Shown here piece after piece: positions 25,111 to 36,530 of a DNA stretch of 36,704 nucleotides. This DNA comes from a virus. Made by a program: the position numbers and the translations under genes. Each line of letters opens with the position of its first letter. The stretch's first letter is position 1. The notes under the pieces were generated by a model that saw nothing but the letters and a program-made list of their open reading frames with translations, made no database searches and was not told the origin of the DNA. The stretch spans positions 1 through 36,704 of IMG/VR virus record IMGVR_UViG_3300019888_000012; one strand, written 5' to 3'.

Positions 25111-26640
25111 CTACTCCTTGTCTGGGTCAGGCAATGCGGCACTCGCCGTAATAAGACCCCTTACTAATGCAACAGCGTTGGTGACAACTTCCGATATGAC
25201 CAGTGATGGATCAATAACACCTTCTTGTAGCATGCCTACAGGCTTATCAGTGATGTTACGAAGATTGAAACCGAACCATGCGTCAACACCGTCTAAACGT
25301 GCTAGATATGATTCAGGGTTCAGACCAGCGTTATCAAATAATGCCTTAAACGGTTGGGTAAATGCCTCATCAAATTCGGTACCCTTTACTCTAGCAAGCG
25401 TTGAGCCACCACCAGGTAAAATACCGTCTTTCATCGCAGACTGAACGGCACATACAGCATCCTGAACTCTTAACTTAACTTCTTCACGTTCAAACTCGAT
25501 TGCACCGCCGACACGGATAATGGCCATTTTGCCTGTCAAACGGGCTAATCTATCTTTAATGAATTGGATAGATTGTGGATGTTCTTCGTCTTTAAGTTGA
25601 TCTTTGAGCCCTTTAATGCGTTCGGTGACTAGCTCTTTTTCGCTATCACCATCAATAATCGTGGTGGAGTGTTCGGTCACCAAAACTTCTTTTGCAAATC
25701 CTAAATGTTCTTCGATTGAGAAATTAACCCCGTCATATACTTTAGCGCCTGTTTTAATGGCAACATCATCTAAGAACAAAGTACGGCCGCCAACTGTATA
25801 GGGAGGGTCAACAGGAACAGCAAGTAATAGGCCTTTAGCACGTGTCATAATCAAAGTCTCTAAGGCGGCATTGTTTACTTCACCAATAATAATTAGTTCT
25901 TTATATCCAGCACGTACCACGTCGTTAATTACTGGTGCCAGTTCCACTTCCGTATTAAAGACTTTATTCGAGATAAGAATGGCCACGTCGGTATGTAGGG
26001 ACTGGTTAGAGGACTGGTCATTGATAAGAGCAGTATCCTTATAGCCACGGTTAAAATAAAAACCATCGACGATCTCATTATGTACACCTAATCCTTCGTA
26101 CTGTTCGATTACTACTCCGCCATCCACACCAACTTCCTGCAGGATATCAGCAATCATCGCGCCCAGTTCTGGATCGCCAGCTGACACTGTGGCGACTTTT
26201 TGCAAATGTTCATCGGTAGATTTTAGTTTAATCGAATTGATATACTCTAAAGCAACCGTTTCAGCTTCACGAAGTTTCTCAGCGACAGCCATAGGATTGA
26301 CACCTTTGCTTTCTAATTTACGGGCAGCTTTTAACAGGTGGTGGGATAAGATAACAACAGCAGTCGTTCCATCACCGACCTTTTGGTTATTCTTTTCGGA
26401 TGCCGACACGATGACTTTCGCTATATCGTCTTCTACTGGGTCAGGTAGGCGCAGTCGTTTAATATTTGTTACGCCGTCCCTAGATAGTAAAGGCGCACCG
26501 CTTTTAAAACCAATAATAACATTGCCCGCTTTCGGGCCATAGGCTGCCTTTGCGACCGCATAAACCTGATCACTAGCGTTAGCTATTTTCTCTTGGAGTA
26601 TGTCCCTATCGGTTATGACGTCAGTCGCTTTTATCGTCAT
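25111..26640 (-). CDS. groL: GroEL-type chaperonin
   Basis: Chaperonins fold substrate proteins inside a double ring capped by GroES. The sequence has the ATPase motif GDGTTAVVIL near residue 90, the catalytic-Asp region VQDAV and the GILPGGGSTL nucleotide-binding segment near residue 395, and an apical domain with GVVIEQYEGLGVHNEIVDGF. At about 509 residues it is somewhat shorter than bacterial GroEL (about 548). It lacks the C-terminal Gly-Gly-Met tail and ends AALPDPDKE. I chose ATG 26640 (MTIKATDV), the typical N-terminus; 26655 is also in frame. Phage chaperonins presumably serve folding of capsid or tail proteins. Confidence 0.93.
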   Translation of the reverse strand: MTIKATDVITDRDILQEKIANASDQVYAVAKAAYGPKAGNVIIGFKSGAPLLSRDGVTNIKRLRLPDPVEDDIAKVIVSASEKNNQKVGDGTTAVVILSHHLLKAARKLESKGVNPMAVAEKLREAETVALEYINSIKLKSTDEHLQKVATVSAGDPELGAMIADILQEVGVDGGVVIEQYEGLGVHNEIVDGFYFNRGYKDTALINDQSSNQSLHTDVAILISNKVFNTEVELAPVINDVVRAGYKELIIIGEVNNAALETLIMTRAKGLLLAVPVDPPYTVGGRTLFLDDVAIKTGAKVYDGVNFSIEEHLGFAKEVLVTEHSTTIIDGDSEKELVTERIKGLKDQLKDEEHPQSIQFIKDRLARLTGKMAIIRVGGAIEFEREEVKLRVQDAVCAVQSAMKDGILPGGGSTLARVKGTEFDEAFTQPFKALFDNAGLNPESYLARLDGVDAWFGFNLRNITDKPVGMLQEGVIDPSLVISEVVTNAVALVRGLITASAALPDPDKE

Positions 26641-26914
26641 CGTATGAAGTCCCATCTATATCATTTATTGGTATTAACGCTAATTTTTCGCCCGTTGGTA
26701 AGGTTACTACACGGAGTTCATCTTTGTAATCCTTAAAATATCCGATACGTCCGACTAGATATCCCCACTCTTTTCTATCAATAGGGTTTACCTCTATAAT
26801 TTCACCTTCGTTAACAGTGTCATACGTTTTTTCGGGCACAGGAACAGCACCGTACTTAGATACTCCAAGTTTTACCAGAACACGTCCCTTTTCGGGTTCG
26901 ATGATTCTTTGCAT
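26621..26914 (-). CDS. groS: GroES-type co-chaperonin
   Basis: 97 aa, the size of GroES, directly upstream of groL and overlapping it. The start RIIEPEKGRVLVK and the segments EGEIIEVNP and GEKLALIPINDIDG match the beta-barrel of the family. The mobile loop region (SKYGAVPVPEKTYD) differs from the usual Ile-Val-Leu tripeptide, as might be expected for a partner matched to the phage GroEL. An acidic tail (GTSYDDDKSD) extends the C-terminus. The ATG at 26914 is preferred over 26923, because the latter overlaps the -10 box. Confidence 0.88.
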   Translation of the reverse strand: MQRIIEPEKGRVLVKLGVSKYGAVPVPEKTYDTVNEGEIIEVNPIDRKEWGYLVGRIGYFKDYKDELRVVTLPTGEKLALIPINDIDGTSYDDDKSD

Positions 26915-26927
26915 ATATCGCATTATA
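26914..26927 (-). promoter_or_regulatory. leaderless promoter for groS-groL operon
   Basis: On the minus strand TATAAT (26927-26922) is followed by GCGATAT and the ATG at 26914. The expected start is at or one base before the ATG, and no ribosome site exists. It overlaps the plus-strand module F, so the two divergent promoters probably compete. Confidence 0.6.
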
Positions 26928-27237: not shown

Positions 27238-27522
27238 ATGACCCAAACCAACGACACCATCTACGCCCTCATCAACTCCCTCAGACTGGAGCTTAAACAA
27301 GACATAGCCACGCAAGGTATAGCCTTGGGGACTCAGATGGGCAAGATAGAGAAAAAGCTGGAAGATCTTGAAGTTGGCCGCATTACGCCCATCGAGAAGG
27401 ACGTCAGTGATCTTAAAATATCCTCTGCCACTGGTAACGTAAAATTAGGAGTGCTTGTCTTTATTGGTTCATCCATCATAAGTAGCGTCGTAACAGTCAT
27501 GGTGGCAAGGATAGCTATATGA
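27238..27522 (+). CDS. membrane protein with coiled coil, XhlA-like layout, 94 aa
   Basis: A polar N-terminal coiled coil (IYALINSLRLELKQDIATQG, KIEKKLEDLEVGRI) is followed by one C-terminal membrane segment (LGVLVFIGSSIISSVVTVMV). This layout resembles XhlA-type lysis accessory proteins and some holin-like factors. It overlaps the next gene by 4 nt, and M23 endolysin and holin genes follow, supporting a lysis role. Sequence identity to a named family cannot be checked here. Confidence 0.5.
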   Translation: MTQTNDTIYALINSLRLELKQDIATQGIALGTQMGKIEKKLEDLEVGRITPIEKDVSDLKISSATGNVKLGVLVFIGSSIISSVVTVMVARIAI

Positions 27523-28034
27523 AGAACCAGCTAGTCGAACGGATGCTCTATATCGTCCTCGGTTTGGTATTCGCAGCAACCGGCACTCTGACATATTTCG
27601 CTATCCAGGCAACCGACCGCCTCAACGATCAGCAGGAAACGCTTAAACAGCAAGTCCAAAATCAAAAAGAAACCCTCAAGGGAGTAAAGGAACTCGTCGC
27701 CAACCAAGGTAAAACGACTGAGGAGATCAATAAAAGTTTGTCGTGTATCCTGACATTCTTCAGCAACCCAAATCGGGCACAACTTTATATCAGCGACTTT
27801 ACCACCTGTACTGTCACGGATACAGGTACAGGACAAACCCAAACACTCACGATAACCCAAGCGGTAAATCCTGTAGTCAGCCCAGCTACCCCTAATGTCC
27901 AGCCGTCTAGCCCGTCGGCACAACCTAGTACCCCTGGTAAGTCCAAAAAGAACAAAGTAAATTCTGCGACACCGAAGAACGGCTTGAGGACATTTCCCCT
28001 TATTAGTGATATATTAAATTTAATAGGATTATAA
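27519..28034 (+). CDS. membrane-anchored protein, possible spanin or lysis accessory, 171 aa
   Basis: One N-terminal membrane anchor (MLYIVLGLVFAATGTLTYFA), then a coiled-coil stalk (DRLNDQQETLKQQVQNQKET), a Thr/Asn domain with two Cys (SCILTFFSN and TTCTV) and a Pro/Ser-rich linker. This is a type II membrane topology with the body outside. It sits immediately before the endolysin, where i-spanin-like proteins are found, but no outer-membrane partner is visible, so the call is only by position and shape. Confidence 0.45.
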   Translation: MKNQLVERMLYIVLGLVFAATGTLTYFAIQATDRLNDQQETLKQQVQNQKETLKGVKELVANQGKTTEEINKSLSCILTFFSNPNRAQLYISDFTTCTVTDTGTGQTQTLTITQAVNPVVSPATPNVQPSSPSAQPSTPGKSKKNKVNSATPKNGLRTFPLISDILNLIGL

Positions 28035-28037
28035 GAC

Positions 28038-28868
28038 ATGTCATTTAGAGTACCAGTAGATAATTATCCCATCACGCAAAGTTTCGGTGTAAATCCAGAC
28101 TACTATAAACAGTTTGGCTATCTCGGACATGATGGGGTAGACTACGCAGCTCCAGTGGGCACACCAGTCTACGCTGCCGATGAAGGCATTGTGACGTTCG
28201 AGGGATGGGGTCAGAACCACTCGTGGATGGGTACGCCAGCTGGTATCTGCGTTCTGCTCAATAATGGCGGTATCTACTCGGGTTATGCCCACCTGTCAGG
28301 CACGGTGGTCAACAAAGGCCAGCATGTAGATAAAGGCCAACTGATCGGCACTGTCGGCTCGACGGGCGCAGCCACAGGCGCTCACCTGCACTTTGAAGCC
28401 CTGCCGCTATCCCCAAACTTTAAGAACGGATACGCAGGACGTATTGACCCCGTACAATACATAGAACTAAATGGAGGTGATGATATGCCAATACCAAACG
28501 CAGATAACTACTACGGTCGATACAGGAAGGCGATGCAGTACATACGCGGCCGTGATATGAGCCGGGATGAGTTCAACGCAAACTTTGTCGGTCATACAGA
28601 CCTCAACATGCTGGAAGCGATGCTAGACAACCCAGAGGCTGATGCTGAACTTGACTACGCCAACTGGGGGAGAACAGCCAAGAACGATAACTGGCAGCAA
28701 CAGATCATTGATAGAACCGCCGAACGTGATGCTGCTGTCGCTGAACTTAACAAACTAAAATCCCAAGCTGGCGGTATAGACCAGCCGACCAAGGACGAGA
28801 TTACCCAGACGGCACAGGACACCAGCTGGATTAAGAACCTGCTGTCCGCAGTATTTAATAGAAAGTAA
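28038..28868 (+). CDS. M23 metallopeptidase endolysin
   Basis: 276 aa. Residues 1-145 form a LytM-type zinc peptidase: His31 and Asp35 in GHDGVDYAAP, His85 in GYAHLSG, and His116/His118 in GAHLHFE, the full metal-binding and catalytic set. Such enzymes cut peptide cross-bridges in peptidoglycan. Residues 150-276 form a separate helical domain (RKAMQYIRGRDMSRDEFNAN), likely wall-binding or regulatory. No signal peptide is present, so release would need the holin. It is flanked by small membrane proteins. Confidence 0.88.
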   Translation: MSFRVPVDNYPITQSFGVNPDYYKQFGYLGHDGVDYAAPVGTPVYAADEGIVTFEGWGQNHSWMGTPAGICVLLNNGGIYSGYAHLSGTVVNKGQHVDKGQLIGTVGSTGAATGAHLHFEALPLSPNFKNGYAGRIDPVQYIELNGGDDMPIPNADNYYGRYRKAMQYIRGRDMSRDEFNANFVGHTDLNMLEAMLDNPEADAELDYANWGRTAKNDNWQQQIIDRTAERDAAVAELNKLKSQAGGIDQPTKDEITQTAQDTSWIKNLLSAVFNRK

Positions 28869-33630: not shown

Positions 33631-33969
33631 ATGAAAGACAATATCAAACGACCAATACTACACGGAGAAAATGCAATCGTTCCTATCGAAAAAATGCCAG
33701 AGGGTAAAACTAAGCGCTATACAAAATATATCGTTGGACATTCAGAAACGGGGCACCACCACGTCCTCGAAGCCGTCAGAGGCCAAGAGTTCGATATACT
33801 TGTGCAAGATGGTGAAATCTACTTCACTAATACCTTTGAGGCCAAAGTCACACATAAGAAACTGCACGACATTCACGAAACTAAGGTAGTTGCTCCTGGT
33901 ATCTATAAGGTTAGTCGTAAACTCGAATACGACCCTTTCACGAAGGTGCGAAGGGCTGTGTTTGACTGA
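33631..33969 (+). CDS. His-rich small protein paired with repeat protein, 112 aa
   Basis: The central segment GHSETGHHHVLEA has four His residues and is followed by strands (DILVQDGEIYFTNTF), then HKKLHDIHETKVVAPGIYKV and an EYDPFTK end. From memory, short proteins of this pattern often lie beside genes for DUF6745-like proteins, and the same pairing is seen here, one base apart. The His cluster could bind metal. The function is unknown. Confidence 0.55.
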   Translation: MKDNIKRPILHGENAIVPIEKMPEGKTKRYTKYIVGHSETGHHHVLEAVRGQEFDILVQDGEIYFTNTFEAKVTHKKLHDIHETKVVAPGIYKVSRKLEYDPFTKVRRAVFD

Positions 33970-33970
33970 T

Positions 33971-35224
33971 ATGGCTACTCTCAAGAAACTAGAAAAATTG
34001 ACACCAGAACAAGAGTCTTTGATGATTGTCACAAAAGACAAATGGATCACTGATTGTCTGACGGGTGGTGATGAGGTCAATGAAACTGATGCTAGAAATG
34101 GTATTGAATGGATGTATGAGTTAGCAGATTTGAAAAAACCAATAGTCATCTTTGTGGATAGCCCTTTGGCTGTACAATACGCTGCTAATATCCTTTATAA
34201 TGAGGGTGCTATTAAGCAAGTGCACTCCCAAGTGTACTCCCAAGTGGACTCCCAAGTGCACTCCCAAGTGTACTCCCAAGTGGACTCCCAAGTGTACTCC
34301 CAAGTGCACTCCCAAGTGTACTCCCAAGTGGACTCCCAAGTGGACTCCCAAGTGGACTCCCAAGTGCGCTCCCAAGTGCACTCCCAAGTGTACTCCCAAG
34401 TGTACTCCCAAGTGGACTCCCAAGTGCACTCCCAAGTGCACTCCCAAGTGTACTCCCAAGTGGACTCCCAAGTGGACTCCCAAGTGCGCTCCCAAGAATT
34501 AAAAGTATTTCCTGTCGCTTATAACGTTGGTGGATGGTATTCAGGTTGGGGTGCGTACCTTGATTTTTACGCACAAATCGGCATTGCAAAACACAAGGAT
34601 TTGAAAATATATCTTGATTACCTACGAAGTGGCGTATTTTACGGTAATTTCCTCGATAATGTTGCGATCGTTTGCCGACGACCTAGCGGAGTTAGACGCG
34701 ACGTAGGACATAATCTTGATTCTGACCAACTCCCAGCCATTGAGTGGCGTGACGGCTATAAATTATGGTTCTTGCATGGTGTTTCATTTGAAGAGCCAGT
34801 ATGGAAAAAGATTGTCAGCCAAAAGCTAACTTTGCCAGAACTAGCCAAGATGGATTTAGGGGCCGATCAGCGAGCGGTGGCGATCCAGATGTTACGAGCT
34901 GACAGGTTACTCGAACAGATGAAGGCCAAGGAAATAGCTACAGGCAAGAAGTACGGCAAACTCTTAGAGCAATTCGGTGAAGATCAATGCGCCGAGTATT
35001 TCCCATTCAGTCTGAATGAACCCACAGTACTTTACCAGGTGGATAATTTCATGGACACTGGAGAGACGGAATACTGCATGAAAATGGAACATCCAAGTAT
35101 TAAAGGTAAGTACTACATTGAGTGGATCGAACCAGAAATAGGTAAGAAGAAAGACGCTGATCTTTGCCAAGCTCATGCTTTTGGGATGTCAGTAGAATCA
35201 TATTTAATAGCTGTTGAAGCTTAG
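33971..35224 (+). CDS. DUF6745-like protein with 23 tetrapeptide repeats
   Basis: 417 aa from ATG 33971, which follows the previous stop by one base. The N-terminal 80 residues ([40 protein letters not shown]) and the C-terminal 240 residues ([20 protein letters not shown]) resemble DUF6745 proteins, from memory. Between them, 23 units of Val-X-Ser-Gln occur (X is His, Tyr, Asp or Arg), at 34220-34495. In the family I recall a related Ser-Gln-Leu-rich segment here, but this array is unusually regular. Function unknown. Confidence 0.6.
34220..34495 (+). repeat. 23 tandem copies of a 12-bp repeat inside a gene
   Basis: Consensus GTGNACTCCCAA, coding Val-X-Ser-Gln. Variation is nearly limited to the first base (C, T or G) of the X codon, plus CGC in two copies. 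The other bases are identical in all copies, including silent positions, so the array is young or homogenised. Every reading frame on both strands stays largely open through it, which creates spurious frames. Confidence 0.95.
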
Positions 35225-35920: not shown

Positions 35921-35940
35921 CAAACAGAGGAGACACTAGA

Positions 35941-36129
35941 ATGTCAACAGGAAAAGGCAAGATCAATTGGGAAAAAGTAAAGACAATCACTATCACGGCG
36001 TTTATCTTTACAATAGCAGGATTAATCGGTGGCTATTTCGCTAGCATTAATCTTCACAGTGACGCACGACAATCAGTCATCAGCGATATGAGCGTCGTGA
36101 CCAAGTTAAGCCCAAAATCAAGCAAGTAG
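35941..36129 (+). CDS. membrane peptide, zero-frame product of a frameshift gene, 62 aa
   Basis: ATG at 35941 follows GAGGAG. The peptide has one membrane segment (TITITAFIFTIAGLIGGYFA) flanked by a basic cytoplasmic N-terminus (STGKGKINWEKVK), then a polar tail. It stops at TAG 36127-36129, inside the frameshift stem. It would be the main product if ribosomes do not shift. The next frame (-1) supplies a lysozyme-like domain. Confidence 0.75.
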   Translation: MSTGKGKINWEKVKTITITAFIFTIAGLIGGYFASINLHSDARQSVISDMSVVTKLSPKSSK

Positions 36130-36530
36130 ATACGCCCGTTGCCCTCAAAACGCAATCAGACGTATCTACGCAAGCTACAGACCATATTGCTGACAGTAGC
36201 AAAATGGTTTCAGCACCTACACAATGCGACCTAGTACGACGAGAAGCCTCAAAATACGATTGGGATGTCAACACAATGGTCGCCATAGCACAAGCAGAAA
36301 GTCACTGCCGCATCGACGCGACTGGTGATACCTCGCTGATATACGAACAGAATGGGCGAACTTATGGCTACTCTGTATCGGTATTTCAGGTGAGGATATT
36401 ACCGGGACGCGAAAAATGCGATAGTCACGATCTAGCAACAAACGTCAGCTGCGCCTACAGGATATACAAATCACAAGGCTTAATCGCGTGGAGTGTATAC
36501 TTGAATAATAAATATAAGGAGTTCTTATGA
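35941..36530 (+). CDS. frameshift fusion: membrane-anchored lytic transglycosylase-like protein, about 196 aa
   Basis: If ribosomes slip by -1 at CCCAAAA (36111-36117), residue 60 onward continues in the overlapping frame to TGA 36528-36530. The distal part has a lysozyme fold signature: Glu120 in AIAQAESHCRIDATGD, then GYSVSVFQVRILPG, as in soluble transglycosylases that cut glycan strands. Four cysteines suggest disulfides, so action outside the cytoplasm. The distal frame opens at 36063 with no start codon or ribosome site until ATG 36204, itself lacking a ribosome site. Fusion is therefore the likely route to this domain. Confidence 0.75.
36111..36169 (+). promoter_or_regulatory. programmed -1 ribosomal frameshift signal
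   Basis: C-CCA-AAA is a canonical X-XXY-YYZ heptamer in the zero frame (36111-36117). After an 8-nt spacer, GTAGATACG (36126-36134) pairs perfectly with CGTATCTAC (36161-36169). The 26-nt loop can form an inner TTGC/GCAA stem. The zero-frame stop UAG lies within the stem. Confidence 0.82.

Follow-up and report, generated by a model that had tools for sequence, protein, structure and literature searches.

A conserved −1 junction in phage genomes points to programmed frameshifting that would tether a cell-wall enzyme to the membrane

Abstract

Two overlapping reading frames in a viral contig, a short membrane ORF and a lysozyme-type frame behind it, appear with high confidence to be one gene, which would be expressed by programmed −1 ribosomal frameshifting to give a membrane-anchored enzyme. 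The elements of this reading, namely a conserved frame relation, a slip site, a stem and an enzyme domain, are seen directly in the sequence. Together with 22 further distinct viral loci, the window (the whole 36,704-nt stretch of DNA analysed here) makes up a set of 23 with the same layout, in which an N-terminal membrane segment is followed by a muralytic-type domain in the −1 frame in every case. An initial annotation of the window had proposed such a frameshift, and the proposal is supported by the conserved layout, the slip site and the stem.

Results

Architecture of the junction

Without slippage, translation of the window gene would yield a 62-aa peptide with one membrane segment, as the initial annotation had it; the N-terminus has a net charge of +3, the predicted topology is N-in/C-out, and searches of Pfam and PHROG with the peptide gave no match in either (Table 1). 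Because its 3′ codons read ...AGC CCA AAA TCA AGC AAG TAG, the CCCAAAA heptamer divides as C_CCA_AAA, the right phase for a −1 shift, and the perfect stem of nine Watson-Crick pairs (GTAGATACG/CGTATCTAC) does lie at the distance first described. Folding of the stretch 3′ of the slip, a check that had been recommended, outperformed dinucleotide shuffles (z = −3.9, 0/200), as did a second folding test against shuffles (z = −5.1, 0/300); an Rfam search gave no match. Translation from the slip onward produces a 196-aa fusion with the junction ...KLSPK/IKQV.... The earliest ATG, GTG or TTG of the −1 frame is ATG 36204, 29 codons after the slip and 75 nt beyond the 0-frame stop, and it has no ribosome site, in agreement with the original remark that the distal frame lacks a start of its own near such a site. 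By itself, CCCAAAA occurs in the window about as often as expected (6 found vs 5.8). What is rare is the full combination: a scan of both strands found only one site in the 36.7-kb window where an ATG-initiated membrane ORF has an A_AAA near its stop and at least 60 open −1 codons.

Table 1 Features of the window junction
Feature	Coordinates	Strand	Remarks
Ribosome-binding site GAGGAG	35927..35932	+	8 nt 5′ of the membrane-ORF ATG; read directly
0-frame membrane ORF, 62 aa	35941..36129	+	Single membrane segment, ~residues 16-34
−1 frame, open	36063..36530	+	Stop at 36530
Slippery heptamer C_CCA_AAA, in phase	36111..36117	+	Universal core A_AAA = 36114-36117
Spacer, 8 nt	36118..36125	+	
Candidate stimulatory stem, 5′ arm GTAGATACG	36126..36134	+	Includes 0-frame stop TAG 36127-36129
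Candidate stimulatory stem, 3′ arm CGTATCTAC	36161..36169	+	
SLT_3 (PF18896) lysozyme-like domain	36252..36494	+	Pfam E 7e-8, above curated cut-off

Enzyme domains behind the anchor

The lysozyme-like character ascribed to the downstream frame is borne out by its Pfam match (Table 1). Residue 63, counted in the frame that starts at 36111, is a putative catalytic Glu and does not vary in 20 aligned members, and an A-x3-A-E motif is likewise invariant among the 20 aligned SLT_3-type members, whose profile weakly matches lysozyme C and EtgA. An AlphaFold model of the window enzyme is lysozyme-like (pLDDT 75), and the best Foldseek match of the model is a lysozyme (E = 0.06, probability 0.97); these results are consistent with a lysozyme fold and not alone proof of it.

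Elsewhere in the set, a different domain follows the same kind of anchor and slip (L005, 3409-3974; L062; L066, on the reverse strand; L067). This second domain bears conserved ES-N-P and GACGLGQ-like motifs, which suggest that it too degrades walls; it had no Pfam match, and its structure, modelled from a single sequence, was too unreliable for use. One kind of anchor and slip is found with two different enzyme domains, and the −1 system is a trait of the phage family.

Conservation of the layout in relatives

Directly searching viral contigs with the window enzyme gave nothing confirmable, and relatives were reached via terminase and then through distant homologues. The terminase search returned 21 relatives, among them G009/L023 with the same layout (T_TTA_AAA TAG), and enzyme-domain homology searches added L029, L034-L038, L043 and L046-L048. 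Pattern scanning of the loci already collected, combined with a domain search, added L005, L066 and L067, although L005 was found by a scan that demanded A_AAA and a −1 frame and is not independent support. When the membrane ORF alone served as the query, 11 loci were recovered, 7 of them new and 4 already known, and all 11 carry a −1 muralytic-type domain downstream; the −1 frame relation is therefore not a product of how loci were chosen.

The set is divergent, with a pairwise DNA identity over the gene of at most 0.68 and a median of 0.47 (20 loci compared). Relatives with one uninterrupted frame, a genuine start of the distal frame that is conserved, and a sequencing error had been named at the outset as what would count against a frameshift. 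Both frames proved conserved, anchor followed by −1 enzyme, in 23/23 loci; anchor and enzyme share one frame in 0/23; no start is conserved, five loci lacking any before the enzyme domain begins; and the same junction recurs in 23 divergent contigs. The membrane ORFs of the members have a purine stretch resembling a ribosome site, and nearly all have a positive N-terminus and a single segment predicted from hydropathy and charge to be N-in/C-out.

Other searches delimit the set. The window 62-aa peptide matched nothing in 16 relatives, two scans of genome contigs found no relative, hence no prophage or host copy is known, and a scan of further relatives' records gave no extra cassette, its single hit being a false positive within a coding frame. 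Nine aligned enzyme domains proved too diverse to serve as a scan query. Contig ends truncate L042 and L024, and L030, L032, L033 and L039 were rejected as unrelated long lysozyme or tail proteins.

Separately, we observed SLT_3-like enzymes that apparently occupy a single frame after a signal-like segment (L025:1339-1833 and L049:1864-2250). These are related enzymes without the −1 junction, in or near the same phage group, and L049 has no ATG, GTG or TTG ahead of its domain.

Slip sites

An in-phase A_AAA lies within the overlap in 20/20 loci vs 5.5 expected when each ORF's own codons are shuffled (product of chances 2 × 10−13, treating as independent loci that are only partly so), and it is also present in the 3 loci added later, giving 23/23. 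AAA is the last codon ahead of the stop in 16/20 loci vs 0.6 expected. A full XXXAAAA heptamer occupies the site used in 12/20 tabulated loci: CCCAAAA in the window, TTTAAAA in L023, L034 and L037, and AAAAAAA in L035, L043, L047, L048, L056, L057, L059 and L062. L026 has both C_AAA_AAA and A_AAA_AAC, and the remaining loci have the weaker GTTAAAA, GTCAAAA, GGTAAAA or GCAAAAA, which provide the A_AAA tetramer only. The conserved element is A_AAA, often directly before the stop, and the CCCAAAA on which the initial annotation had focused is one version of it: the core is kept in 23/23 loci, the heptamer as such is not.

In bacteria, −1 shifting is established at Z_ZZN tetramers and X_XXZ_ZZN heptamers; in E. 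coli, A_AA.A with a stimulator is such a site, and Y_YY.A_AA.R is named among the shifty exceptions (PMC4066793). Of the six tetramers active in E. coli, however, A_AA.A ranks lowest even when a strong stimulator is present (PMC4066793), which counts against slippage in the several loci that have the tetramer only.

Downstream stems

In 50-nt windows beginning 4 nt past the slip codon, the mean folding z was −2.3 for the loci vs −0.4 for control windows, and z was at most −2 in 60% of loci vs 11% of controls. When uninterrupted stems starting 3-14 nt past the slip were counted, the best stem reached p < 0.05 in 10/23 loci vs 4/69 controls. A spacing of exactly 8 nt between slip codon and stem is shared by the window, L037 and L067, whose stems also include the 0-frame UAG. 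In the subgroup of L036, L053, L054, L057 and L060 an 8-bp stem covaries (arms TGGCGCTG/CAGCGCCA, TGGCTGTT/AACAGCCA and TGGCACCG/CGGTGCCA), with both sides changed in 4/8 pairs, a result matched by 1-4 of 500 shuffles. Stems are enriched at the junction and covary in one subgroup, but L034 and L046 have no clear stem at the normal distance.

The window phage and its likely host

The phage family is uncultured, and a phage related to it infects Saccharibacteria (TM7). Over 98% of its length, the major capsid protein of the window, an IMG/VR virus record, shares 52% identity with a protein of TM7 phage DolZOral124_53_65 (MG269973), and the top-ranked match of the window GroEL is also from this phage, so a Saccharibacteria-type host is likely for the window phage on sequence similarity. 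The TM7 phage itself contributes locus L026 (MG269973.1, 17584-18227), which has A_AAA_AAC and C_AAA_AAA sites, a −1 lysozyme and a 10-bp hairpin. In its GenBank record, CQ476_31 covers the membrane ORF only, ending after 86 residues, under the name 'lysozyme-like domain protein', and the lysozyme frame behind it is unannotated. The lack of a separate start codon for the enzyme half explains why annotation pipelines miss the gene, as in this record.

Several neighbouring features were also observed. CQ476_33 of MG269973, a 'homeodomain-like protein', is the homologue of the window major capsid protein. The window encodes a phage GroEL at 25111-26655 (−; Cpn60, E 8e-48), with a small ORF in the GroES position at 26621-26923 (−) that had no match in a Pfam search, and MG269973, too, encodes a Cpn60, near its candidate frameshift lysozyme. 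A second wall enzyme, an M23 peptidase, is encoded at 28038-28868, behind two small ORFs with hydrophobic stretches (27238-28034). A 444-aa DUF6745 ORF (33890-35224) contains a long repeat run at 34200-34500, and the DUF6745 gene is common to the window and its relatives L010, L015, L020 and L021.

Discussion

From these elements we infer that slippage occurs, along with its efficiency, the topology of the products and their role in lysis. Translation would begin at ATG 35941 and give a short N-in/C-out membrane peptide; on reaching C_CCA_AAA, some ribosomes, slowed by the stem 8 nt ahead, would re-pair their P- and A-site tRNAs one base back, the Lys tRNA moving from AAA to AAA. Slipped ribosomes would bypass the UAG inside the stem and go on in the −1 frame, adding a linker and the lysozyme-type domain. 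The products would be a small membrane peptide and, probably less abundant, a membrane-anchored muramidase with its enzyme facing the wall; hydropathy and the positive-inside rule agree, as predictions, with a SAR-type layout of an anchor and then an outside enzyme. Such a pair could act in host lysis as a holin/endolysin or SAR-endolysin-like pair from one gene, and the fusion probably serves this purpose. As the initial annotation proposed, the ratio of the two products might tune wall damage, or the peptide might regulate the enzyme. Third-position bias in the linker ahead of any start codon was found for L043/L047 only (12 vs 7 and 7) and not in the other pairs compared.

The frameshift could be real and the fusion nevertheless serve something other than lysis, as an entry (virion) lysozyme or an envelope exclusion factor. 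The nearest annotated homologues outside the group include the 'putative entry lysozyme' of Rhodococcus phages P19 and Toil as well as tail proteins, the gene next to the junction in L042 and L057 is helicase-like and not a lysis gene, the frameshift gene of the TM7 phage lies close to the major capsid gene, and the window has its M23 peptidase besides. A membrane anchor, however, would suit an enzyme working from within the infected cell better than a component of the virion, and we consider a non-lytic role unlikely, if a serious contender.

Termination-reinitiation would instead give a separate holin and a soluble endolysin started nearby by just-terminated ribosomes, as in the classic holin-endolysin operon. 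Coupling is conceivable where an ATG overlaps the stop, in L035 (TAATG) and L048 (ATGA), and an in-frame GTG lies ~8 nt beyond the first base of the stop codon in L036, L053, L054, L060 and L062. The first start in the window, however, is remote from the stop, and in L037, L043, L047, L057 and L005 the first ATG, GTG or TTG falls within the enzyme domain; ordinary reinitiation is excluded in these five loci because no start precedes that domain. Moreover, reinitiation needs no −1 frame, A_AAA or stem at the junction, yet the −1 relation holds in 23/23, and we judge this account very improbable.

No more credible is slippage of RNA polymerase on the A run, which would restore the frame in the transcript. 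Eight loci do have a run of seven A at the junction, but there are only four or five in the window, L023, L029, L034, L036-L038, L046, L053, L054, L060, L005, L066 and L067. Runs of four or five A are too short for ordinary transcript slippage, and the conserved downstream stem points to the ribosome. Finally, although the window is a single metagenome contig, the chance that its junction is a sequencing or assembly error or a decayed gene is negligible, error being excluded because the identical −1 relation recurs at the same junction across 23 divergent contigs, one of them the published genome of the TM7 phage, MG269973.

Programmed −1 frameshifting, the reading that we favour, is a known mechanism; what appears to be new is its conserved deployment for tethering a phage wall enzyme. 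In our literature search, whose coverage was partial, phage frameshifts were found in tail genes, and no conserved frameshift tethering a phage wall enzyme was found. As in the tail assembly chaperone gpG/gpGT of tailed phages, a −1 slip towards the 3′ end of a short ORF would let a single start give both a short and an extended product, but the locus here would yield a membrane-anchored wall enzyme, and its slip lies mostly right before the stop. Motif classes and a downstream stimulator are shared with the −1 signals of the IS1 and IS3 families (A_AA.A and A_AA.G tetramers, A_AAA_AAR heptamers; PMC4066793), whose product is a transposase, whereas here it is a phage muralytic enzyme. Another phage lysin, one from Lactococcus in two overlapping genes, is cited through PRFect (PMC10885494) as using a frameshift; the literature covered here mentions neither a membrane anchor nor family-wide conservation for it.

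The predicted N-terminal anchor and the lysozyme-type domain facing the wall recall SAR (signal-anchor) endolysins and holin-endolysin pairs. To our knowledge, however, SAR endolysins are encoded in one continuous frame, whereas here anchor and enzyme are out of frame in 23/23 loci and the anchor would also be made alone. With the same slip kept across 23 very different phages, the junction looks like a built-in switch and not a sequencing error.

More tentatively, the junction may be a portable module of anchor, slip and hairpin, in which wall-degrading domains are swapped while the −1 relation is kept, and which would work as a one-gene lysis timer; we hold this to be possible and do not favour it at present. 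If it is true, one gene would supply both a holin-like peptide and a tethered lysin, in a ratio set by the ribosome. The finding would add a phage cell-wall enzyme to tail assembly and transposases as uses of programmed frameshifting, here with conservation across a phage group, and it offers a concrete way into studying phage action on the envelope of Saccharibacteria-type hosts, a little-known field.
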